The notes beneath the pieces were generated by a model. That model was given only the letters and a program-made list of their open reading frames with translations, had not been told where the DNA came from and made no database searches. Made by a program: the position numbers and the translations under genes. This document shows, one piece after another, positions 19,044 through 26,237 of a stretch of DNA of 64,000 bases. This DNA comes from Caldilineales bacterium (GTDB lineage: Bacteria; Chloroflexota; Anaerolineae; J102): assembly GCA_019695115.1 (NCBI GenBank), contig JAIBAP010000004.1:62001-126000 (forward strand). The letters run 5' to 3'. Within the stretch, counting starts at the first letter, position 1; each line of letters begins with the position of its first letter.

Positions 19044-19105
19044 GGGTTGGTTATTGGTCATTGGTTATTGGTTATTGACAATAACCAATAACTAATAACC
19101 AATTA
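19044..19105. repeat. Heptad array TTGGTTA with self-inverted half
   Basis: Copies of TTGGTTA/TTGGTCA are followed at 19079 by the same unit inverted. GTTATTGGTTATTG (19064-19077) and CAATAACCAATAAC (19079-19092) are perfect reverse complements around a single base. The structure could act as a transcript hairpin downstream of rmlB on the minus strand. Confidence 0.85.
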
Positions 19106-23563: not shown

Positions 23564-24250
23564 TCAGCGCCGCGGTATTTCGCCCACCACCGGGATGCCC
23601 AAGGCCTCCAGTTGCCGGCGGTCGCGCAGACGGTCGTCCAGGTATTCGAGCAAGAAGATGGCAAGGAGGCCGGCGACCAGGGCCAGGGCCAGGCGGAGGG
23701 GCAGATCGAGCCGCTGGCGCAGGCTGGGACCGATGGCGGCGGGCTGCCCGCGGTTGACCAGGTAGACCGCGCCCTGGTCGGCCAACAGCCGGGGCATGAA
23801 CAGGTGGGCGGCCTCGGTCATGGCCCCACTGACGGCGTCGGCGATGGCGTTCAGTTGGGCGGGGTCGCCGCCATAGAGGGTGATGGTGAGGATGCGGTGC
23901 AGCTTCCCGGCCTGGGTGCTGCCCTGGATGCTGCCAGGGGCGACCGTGATCCCCTGGTCGGCCAGCCGGCGCGAGACTTCGGCGGCAAAGGCCGAGCCTT
24001 TGACGATCTCGCTGAAATCGTCGATCAGATACTCTGATGCCAGGGCGCTGTAGTAACCATCGTAGTTGTACTCGCCCGCCTCGGCCTGGGGCTGCACACC
24101 CACGCTAAACGACAAGCCCAGGGCGTAGGCCGGGGGCCGGGGTTGCCACGGGCGCTGGTCGAGCAACGTCAGCGCCAGGGTGAGGCCCACCAGGAGGACC
24201 GGCAGCCACCAGCGACGACGAAGAACGGCGACATAGGCGCGAAGTTCCAT
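23564..24250 (-). CDS. Second Wzz-like membrane protein
   Basis: A 228-residue protein of the same layout: MELRAYVAVLRRRWW, a first helix, an extracytoplasmic part, and a second helix near 180-200 (LRLALALVAGLLAIFLLEYLDD) with the tail LEALGIPVVGEIPRR. It is clearly divergent from the downstream paralogue. Two Wzz-like proteins may form a mixed complex or serve two glycans. Transcription starts at the shared bidirectional promoter. Confidence 0.8.
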   Translation of the reverse strand: MELRAYVAVLRRRWWLPVLLVGLTLALTLLDQRPWQPRPPAYALGLSFSVGVQPQAEAGEYNYDGYYSALASEYLIDDFSEIVKGSAFAAEVSRRLADQGITVAPGSIQGSTQAGKLHRILTITLYGGDPAQLNAIADAVSGAMTEAAHLFMPRLLADQGAVYLVNRGQPAAIGPSLRQRLDLPLRLALALVAGLLAIFLLEYLDDRLRDRRQLEALGIPVVGEIPRR

Positions 24251-24258
24251 ACGGGCCT

Positions 24259-24287
24259 ACTTTAGCACAAGCGGGGCGGTGTGCTAA
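24259..24287 (-). promoter_or_regulatory. Minus-strand half of a symmetrical bidirectional promoter
   Basis: TTAGCA (complement of 24282-24287), a 17-bp spacer and TGC-TAAAGT (hexamer, complement of 24259-24264) drive the Wzz/kinase/sugar operon. Each element lies inside one arm of the 9-bp inverted repeat TTTAGCACA-N10-TGTGCTAAA (24261-24288). Confidence 0.6.
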
Positions 24288-24290
24288 ACT
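24262..24290 (+). promoter_or_regulatory. Plus-strand half of the symmetrical bidirectional promoter
   Basis: TTAGCA (24262-24267), a 17-bp spacer and TGC-TAAACT (24285-24290) drive the protease/sulfotransferase operon. The two promoters are superimposed face to face, so the -35 of one is the complement of the -10 region of the other. Confidence 0.6.
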
Positions 24291-24362
24291 TTTGGCTGAC
24301 GCATTTCGGATCGCGCAGGACGCGCCATCCGCGCCCACAACCCTAACCAGAGGAGGCAGGCC

Positions 24363-26237
24363 GTGCCAAGTGTCATGCCAAGTGCAGAACCCCCCAAACC
24401 AATGAAGAATGCCGCCCCGCTCGACAGGATCGCCGGCATGAGCGCCGACCAGATCAAGGCCCTGGCCGCCTACTGGATCATCAGCATCCAGGAATTCCTG
24501 GCCGTGAACGAATTGCCCGGCGGCCGCGGCCAGCTGCGCACCATCCTAGCCGTAGACGAGACCGAAATCGACCGCCTCTTGGAGCGCGGGGTGAAGATCG
24601 TCGGCCAGCGCGGGAGCGACAAGGACGAAGACCAACTGATGGCCGCCGACCTGGGCATCGGCGCCGTGGAGCCGCCTGGCCCCATGCGCGGCGAAAGCTA
24701 CGACACCATCGCCTTTGCCGGGCAACTCCCGGCCGTCGTCAGTTATGTCGATCACATGCCGCCGATCCGCAACCAGGGCGGGCGCGGCACCTGTGTGGCC
24801 CATGCCACCGCCGCCGTGCGCGAATTCATGGAGATCCAGGCCGGGATGGCGGGCGCCGACATCAACCTCTCGGAGCAGTTCATCTACTGGTGGTGCAAAG
24901 AGCAAGACAACATGCCCAATGTCGGCGGCACCTACCCTCACCTGGGCATCGAATGCCTGGCGAAGCTGGGGACTGTGACCGAGACGCAATGGCCCTACAC
25001 CATCCTCCCCAAACCGGGCGACGAGGGCCAGGGGCCGCCCCCGCCCGGCGCGCTGGACGAGGCCGGCCGTTGGCGGCTCAAGCGCGCCATCCGGCTCGAC
25101 CCCAAGGATGTCAACAGCATCAAGACGGCCCTGGCCGATGGCAAGGCCGTCGTCTTCGCCATCCCCGTCTTCCCCTCCTGGTTCAACCTGCGCACCACCC
25201 GGCGCAGCGGCAAGATCAACCTGCCCTTGCCCGGCGAAAAGCAGAACGGCGCCCATGCCATGGCCCTCGTCGGCTATGTCGATGACCCCTCGGCCCCCGG
25301 CGGCGGCTTCTTCCTCCTGCGCAATTCGTGGGCGCCGAACGGCGTGCCCTGGGGTTTCGACAATCCCTGGGCGGGCGGCTATGGTGCCATCCCCTACGCC
25401 TTCATCGCCCAATACAACATGGCCGCCGTCACCGGCGACCGCGCCGCCCTGGCCGATGTCTACCTCCGCGACAACGAGCAAGACCAGGGCCAGGTTCCCA
25501 GCCCCGGCATCCGCTGCAACAGCCCCGACCTCTGGCTGCGTCAAAGCGCCGACGGGCTGGAAGGCCACCAGGCGGCCAGGCCGGGCGCGGCCAATCACCT
25601 CTATGTGCGGGCCTGGAACCTGGGGCCGGGCGTGGCCCGCAAGGCATCGGCGACGCTGTACTATGCCCCGGCCTCGCCCTCGATCTGGCCGCAGAACTGG
25701 CAGCAGATCGGCCAGGTAGCCCTGCCCGACATCCCCGCCCGCGGCTCGGCCACGGCCTCGCTGGCGTGGACGCCGCCCGACGCCGGCCCCTTCTGCTTCC
25801 TCGCCCGCCTGGCCTCGCCCGAAGACCCGGTGCAGCACGAGTGGTCGGTGCGCGACGACAACAACATCGCCCAGAAGAACCTGGTGGTGTTGCAGGCCAA
25901 AGCGGGGGCCAAGACCGAATTCACCTTCAGGATGCACGGCCTGCCCAACCAGGTGACGATGATGGACCTGAACATCGATCGGGCCGGGTTCCCGCGCGGG
26001 CGCATCGAACTCAGGCTGGCCCCGCGCACGGGCTTTCGTGGCTCCGGCCGGCTGGAGGAGGACGAAGCCCGGCTGGCCAATCTGCAGGTCCAGGCCACAG
26101 ACGCAGAAGCAGTGGGCGTGTTCATCACCACCGACGCCGCCGCCAAAGCAGGCGAGGTGGGCGAGATCATCTTCACCCAACACTACGGCAACCTGCTGGT
26201 GGGGCGGATGACGGTTCGGGTGGAGGTGACAGCCTGA
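24363..26237 (+). CDS. Papain-like (C1) cysteine protease with C-terminal beta domains
   Basis: A 624-residue protein. After a small helical N-terminal domain (residues 20-80, resembling helix-hairpin-helix DUF4332-type regions) comes a papain fold with Q138 and C144 (RNQGGRGTCVAHA), H298 (NGAHAMALVGY) and N321 (LRNSWAP), so the catalytic residues are intact. A CARDB-like domain (about 395-510) and a further beta domain follow. There is no signal peptide, which suggests a cytosolic enzyme or non-classical export. AGGAGG lies 6 nt before the GTG start. It is the first gene of the glycan operon and overlaps the next gene at TGATG. The substrate is unknown. Confidence 0.82.
   Translation: MPSVMPSAEPPKPMKNAAPLDRIAGMSADQIKALAAYWIISIQEFLAVNELPGGRGQLRTILAVDETEIDRLLERGVKIVGQRGSDKDEDQLMAADLGIGAVEPPGPMRGESYDTIAFAGQLPAVVSYVDHMPPIRNQGGRGTCVAHATAAVREFMEIQAGMAGADINLSEQFIYWWCKEQDNMPNVGGTYPHLGIECLAKLGTVTETQWPYTILPKPGDEGQGPPPPGALDEAGRWRLKRAIRLDPKDVNSIKTALADGKAVVFAIPVFPSWFNLRTTRRSGKINLPLPGEKQNGAHAMALVGYVDDPSAPGGGFFLLRNSWAPNGVPWGFDNPWAGGYGAIPYAFIAQYNMAAVTGDRAALADVYLRDNEQDQGQVPSPGIRCNSPDLWLRQSADGLEGHQAARPGAANHLYVRAWNLGPGVARKASATLYYAPASPSIWPQNWQQIGQVALPDIPARGSATASLAWTPPDAGPFCFLARLASPEDPVQHEWSVRDDNNIAQKNLVVLQAKAGAKTEFTFRMHGLPNQVTMMDLNIDRAGFPRGRIELRLAPRTGFRGSGRLEEDEARLANLQVQATDAEAVGVFITTDAAAKAGEVGEIIFTQHYGNLLVGRMTVRVEVTA

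Follow-up and report, generated by a model that had tools for sequence, protein, structure and literature searches.

As PMC10268837 and PMC12825309 describe them, bacterial bidirectional promoters of the Warman type have divergent start sites, 7-25 bp apart and mostly 18 bp apart, placed around one shared -10 element. In E. coli, all five of the bidirectional promoters tested were too weak at the basal level for polymerases to compete, and repression of one side was seen only when the other was strongly activated (PMC12825309). PsoxS/soxR provides a further case, in which divergent initiation overlaps inside one polymerase footprint and one of the two genes encodes the regulator of the site (PMC12825309). 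TA-led (leaderless) genes, which carry a -10-like TANNNT close before the start codon, are present in some Chloroflexi according to a survey of bacterial genomes (PMC3160421).

The site described here lies in a 64,000-nucleotide stretch of a Caldilineales genome (the window), in a gap of 112 bp between two divergent surface-sugar (glycan) operons. The leftward operon begins with a Wzz-like gene, followed by genes for Wzz, a ParA/CbiA-type ATPase (tyrosine-kinase-like), a nucleotidyl transferase and a sugar dehydratase. The rightward operon begins with a peptidase gene, followed by GT2, Gfo/Idh/MocA, two sulfotransferase genes and a further GT2. The features discussed below are as follows, with the evidence for each in brackets.

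23564-24250, minus strand: first gene of the leftward operon, Wzz-like membrane protein of 228 aa (no Pfam match; orthologs throughout the family)
24259-24267, minus strand: putative extended -10 TGCTAAAGT of the wzz-like-operon promoter (sequence, candidate ranking, wzz-like orthologs)
24261-24288, no strand: perfect inverted repeat TTTAGCACA-N10-TGTGCTAAA (sequence, shuffles, genome search)
24262-24267, plus strand: -35 position TTAGCA, 4/6, 17-bp spacing (-35 match analysis, candidate ranking)
24282-24287, minus strand: -35 position TTAGCA, 4/6, 17-bp spacing (-35 match analysis, candidate ranking)
24282-24290, plus strand: putative extended -10 TGCTAAACT of the peptidase-operon promoter, longer form TGTGCTAAACT (sequence, candidate ranking, peptidase orthologs)
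24340-24345, minus strand: -10 position of the runner-up promoter candidate TTGGCA-N18-TAGGGT, without TG (candidate ranking)
24363-26237, plus strand: first gene of the rightward operon, papain-family (Peptidase_C1) protein (good Shine-Dalgarno GAGGAGG)

Like the promoters of Warman et al. (2021), as these two papers describe them, the site is a short pseudo-symmetric sequence between divergent genes, at which polymerase could bind in two orientations, one excluding the other. Unlike them, it has two separate outward-facing extended -10 elements, each overlapping the -35 position of its partner; the hexamers occupy 24259-24264 and 24285-24290, and the predicted start sites are about 45 bp apart rather than 7-25 bp around one -10. 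With PsoxS/soxR it shares overlapping divergent initiation within one polymerase footprint, but no regulator of the site is visible beside it, and none was found among the family-annotated neighbours. The literature on overlapping or back-to-back promoters that share -35 and -10 elements yielded nothing nearer than these bidirectional-promoter papers; Warman et al. (2021) may describe other geometries as well.

The inverted repeat read as two promoters

TTTAGCACA (24261-24269), a 10-bp loop and TGTGCTAAA (24280-24288) form a perfect 9-bp inverted repeat, exactly as the preliminary description had it. Together with its promoter flanks, the element is ACTTTAGCACAAGCGGGGCGGTGTGCTAAACT, 32 bp in length (24259-24290). 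A bare repeat of this kind is commonplace, since 31 maximal 9-bp perfect inverted repeats with a gap of 0-30 occur in the window. Many inverted-repeat matches come from TTGGTTATTGGTTATT-like repeats at 19047-19090, in the intergenic region after 19026. The exact dyad appeared in none of 100 shuffled sequences, and a search of the whole 6-Mb genome at up to two mismatches found no further copy, so that the dyad is single-copy. An operator of a genome-wide regulon was considered and rejected, because the dyad has no second copy and the other TAGCA-N14-TGCTA in the genome falls within a coding frame.

On the plus strand the dyad reads TTAGCA-N17-TAAACT and on the minus strand TTAGCA-N17-TAAAGT, with TGC ahead of the -10 in both cases. 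TGCTAAAGT (minus) and TGCTAAACT (plus) read as a back-to-back pair of extended -10 elements at a distance of 14 bp, and both have the TGn and the hexamer with T and A in its first two positions and T in its last that characterize the extended -10 of sigma70/sigmaA. The elements of the pattern proposed earlier, TTAGCA-N17-TGCTAAA(C/G)T, are present on both strands, but its spacing has to be corrected: 17 bp separate TTAGCA from the hexamer TAAA(C/G)T, and 14 bp separate it from TGCTAAA(C/G)T. When -10 candidates with A2 and T6 between 24200 and 24400 were ranked on both strands, TG being counted in the points, the two readings of the dyad came out on top (10 points each vs 8 for the next). A plain 9-of-12 consensus scan reported no promoter at the dyad, because its -35 and -10 hexamers match at only 4/6 each; the case for the putative promoters is carried by the TG extension and by the comparative evidence. 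Upstream of genes in the same genome, further extended -10s of the form TGCTANNNT are found, for example TTGACAATCGTAGGGCGCCTTGCTATAAT. A de novo EM promoter model built from upstream regions drifted into a degenerate TTG...T motif and was set aside, and when the positions after TTGAC were profiled in upstream regions, no clear -10 peak emerged in this high-GC sample.

The -35 match has to be valued with care. TTAGCA stands at 17 bp, within the usual 16-18 bp, and matches TTGACA at 4/6 on both strands, and the opposite -10 accounts for most of this. Complementing TGnTAN gives NTAnCA, a hexamer that in every case agrees with TTGACA at no fewer than three positions (3-5/6), compared with 15% of random hexamers, and at a 14-bp gap it lands exactly 17 bp from the -10 of the partner. 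Once two extended -10s stand 14 bp apart, a -35 in each arm partly follows and is not separate evidence; the -35 match of the arms is mostly a by-product of the opposite extended -10 and largely automatic. The earlier proposal that each arm is both a -35 and a -10 keeps its positional part, in that each extended -10 sits at the -35 position of its partner, and loses most of its weight as a statement about sequence match.

The divergent extended -10 pair A...TA.CA-N14-TG.TA...T occurs three times in the 6-Mb genome vs none for the reversed control, and when 464 kb of sequence was sampled for divergent TG.TA...T pairs with gaps anywhere from 0 to 60, the window dyad was the sole case. Our own estimate from the counts gives a chance expectation of about 0.4 N14 pairs for the intergenic DNA of the genome. 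The two intergenic N14 cases are only mildly surprising when the conservation of the second of them, at the FTCD_C locus described below, is left aside.

Orthologous promoters and the history of the dyad

Most orthologs of the peptidase gene carry TGCTATACT or TGTTATACT roughly 50-95 nt ahead of the start codon, in several cases with TTGACG at N18 before that -10 (TTGAC-N18-TGCTATACT); in the window, TGCTAAACT lies 72 nt before the peptidase GTG. Upstream of the wzz-like orthologs in the family stands TTGAC(A/C/G)-N17/18-(C/G)A(C/A)ACT, and in five of them (L110, L112, L116, L119 and L121) 6-8 nt separate the -10 from the ATG; in the window, 8 nt separate TAAAGT from it. Each direction of the dyad is thus supported by its own series of orthologs.

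The leftward side also resembles the TA-led genes (PMC3160421), in which TANNNT lies about 12 bp before the start with no Shine-Dalgarno sequence. TAAAGT begins 14 bp before the wzz-like ATG (12-14 bp in orthologs), with no Shine-Dalgarno sequence visible, and the wzz-like mRNA would apparently be leaderless. The likeness is confined to this side; a normal Shine-Dalgarno leader precedes the rightward gene. Called starts in the 464-kb sample have TA...T 5-10 nt ahead of them in 16 cases vs about 8.6 expected from neighbouring positions, a moderate excess. The wzz-like gene appears to be leaderless in several genera (L006, L009, L011, L015, L017), where the -10 ends 6-8 nt before the ATG. Close relatives of such leaderless loci have leaders of about 40-55 nt, which suggests that a leader was repeatedly gained or lost at one promoter.

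The dyad itself is not conserved among relatives. In the other two genomes of the genus, the promoter ahead of the wzz-like gene is of the ordinary TTGACA kind, and a different contig carries the peptidase gene. Among 20 genomes of the order, the same divergent pair was found only in G004, where the gap is longer and the promoters are separate: TTGACG-N18-TATACT, with TGT before the -10, for the peptidase gene and TTGACC-N17-CACACT for the wzz-like gene. The symmetric dyad is not ancestral, and it probably took shape within this lineage, through a shortening of the gap or a fusion of the two boxes.

This lack of conservation is one of the points in favor of another reading, in which the dyad works in a single direction, a promoter elsewhere drives the second gene (for the wzz-like gene, for example, TTGGCA-N18-TAGGGT at about 24340-24345) and the compact gap has given rise to the symmetry by coincidence. 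The second minus-strand candidate trails by only two points, 8 vs 10, and the complement of any TGnTAN resembles TTGACA automatically. Such a division of labor is nevertheless unlikely: the distance from the wzz-like -10 to the ATG fits the leaderless layout of the relatives, the peptidase -10 agrees with those of the orthologs in both sequence and distance, and both arms have the full TG.TA...T, with no other such divergent pair at a gap of 0-60 in 464 kb.

A conserved site of the same geometry

The geometry search of the genome also found ATTATACCATCCGGCCCCCAGCCTGCTATAAT (G000 contig 3, 83386-83417; L225:2387-2418), with a rightward FTCD_C gene on one side and, on the other, a leftward gene for an SH3_3 domain that scores just under the Pfam cut-off. 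The site has the form ATTATACCA-N14-TGCTATAAT, that is, ATTATAnCAT-N12-CTGnTATAAT. A class-wide search in which the gap could range from 4 to 24 placed the FTCD_C locus of four more family members among the matches listed, all with N14, and a search based on FTCD_C found the element in 14 family genomes, all with exactly N14 (orthologs including L227-L230 and L239-L255). In pairwise comparisons, identity amounts to 99% over the 16 TGnTATAAT positions, 62% over the two n's and 37% over the 12 bp inside; restricting the comparison to one genome per genus gives 100, 86 and 34%. The flanks differ in length (58-99 nt and more from the -10 to the FTCD_C start) and the 32-bp length of the element is constant. 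These comparisons show that the family maintains, at the FTCD_C locus, putative symmetric back-to-back extended -10 promoters at a fixed spacing, and a fixed N14 is what a functional shared -35 predicts. Because variation in TGnTATAAT falls on the n and spares the bases around it, the arms would be read as a sigma-factor target, and this variation points to a sigma extended -10 rather than to a protein operator. This element is not CIRCE, whose copies stand at hrcA-grpE and groESL.

A gap of 14 bp is not the sole workable one, as ATTATACCA-N17-TGGTATAAT is kept in four genomes of family f21 (L234:1483-1517, L235, L236, L237), where it separates a gene with hexapeptide repeats (acetyltransferase-like) from a divergent gene whose product of about 165 aa has no Pfam match. 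Among the matches listed, there was no class-wide preference for the 14-bp gap beyond the FTCD_C locus. A class-wide search for TTAGCA-N8..22-TGCTAA gave, among the matches listed, mostly CIRCE and no visible excess at 14, and the gap distribution in viral contigs was flat (4 at gap 14 vs a mean of 4.3). The preliminary description had proposed looking for the same 28-bp pattern at other divergent pairs: its sequence does not recur, whereas its geometry does, at FTCD_C/SH3_3. Its central idea of a symmetric bidirectional promoter has gained from the comparison, being backed by the ortholog promoters of both genes and by the N14 site in 14 family genomes.

It seems to us improbable that a dimeric repressor uses the dyad as its operator, the most plausible form of which would be a CIRCE-like HrcA site overlapping ordinary promoters. 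The resemblance is real: the dyad has TTAGCAC/GTGCTAA in common with CIRCE, 7/9 bases of each CIRCE arm, the genome encodes HrcA and has two perfect CIRCE copies, at hrcA-grpE and groESL, and in G175, a genome of the same class, one CIRCE spans 26 bp because its spacer is shorter. However, the CIRCE arm itself includes TGCTAA, so that the likeness partly follows from the -10. Measured against TTAGCACTC-N9-GAGTGCTAA, the dyad lacks the inner TC/GA pair and spans 26 instead of 27 bp. The genes beside it do not encode chaperones, the dyad has no second copy in the genome, the upstream regions of the orthologs of both genes are free of CIRCE-like sites, and the family-annotated neighbours include no regulator gene. 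The CIRCE variant of G175 (contig 148, 1184-1209) is TTAGCACTC-N8-GAGTGCTAA, 26 bp where 27 is usual, and a second, degenerate CIRCE lies about 75 bp away from it. An RNA hairpin acting as terminator or attenuator, for which the CTTTTGG directly after the perfect 9-bp stem might speak, can practically be dismissed, as no transcript is expected across a dyad between divergent genes, the predicted start sites fall outside it, and a terminator scan (covering loops of 3-8 only) did not list it.

Possible competition between the two directions and wider meaning

Taken together, the sequence comparisons make it probable that the 32-bp element at 24259-24290 is a symmetric back-to-back promoter for the housekeeping sigma factor and serves both operons. 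Two TGnTANNNT extended -10s would face outward with 14 bp between them, the opposite strand of each giving a weak -35, TTAGCA, and RNA polymerase would bind in one of two orientations. In the rightward orientation, transcription would start near 24297 and give a peptidase/sulfotransferase mRNA whose leader measures about 66 nt; in the leftward orientation, it would start near 24252-24250 and give an essentially leaderless wzz-like/kinase mRNA. We infer the activity in either direction, the start sites and the competition at the dyad from this arrangement.

Two polymerase complexes would be unable to coexist on the element, and a strongly activated side should therefore repress its partner. As long as activity stays basal, the two directions would probably be nearly independent. 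Such steric exclusion is inevitable for any promoters so close together, and symmetry is not needed for it. It is possible but unsupported that the wzz-like and peptidase operons are mutually exclusive or evenly split, as had been suggested at the outset.

The dyad is thus a probable bidirectional promoter with a geometry unlike the described shared -10 type and with a conserved relative in the same genome, and its layout is probably genuine, if only a modest departure from the two-way promoters already known. A bolder view, which we hold tentatively and with more doubt than conviction, is that there is a distinct class of bidirectional promoter, in which outward extended -10s stand at a fixed 14-bp gap and the complement of each, NTAnCA, is the -35 of the other at 17 bp. 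This class would have been selected as a unit at FTCD_C/SH3 (14 genomes) and would have arisen again in the gap between the wzz-like and peptidase genes, coupling the operons through the orientation of the polymerase.

In the bacterial bidirectional promoters described so far, one symmetric -10 is shared; here, two extended -10s would supply each other with the -35 position. Two extended -10s 14 bp apart may offer a simple means of driving two divergent operons from a single short palindrome, and the FTCD_C/SH3 series of the family, with its fixed gap and free spacer, provides natural material on the selection of the gap and on competition between the two directions.
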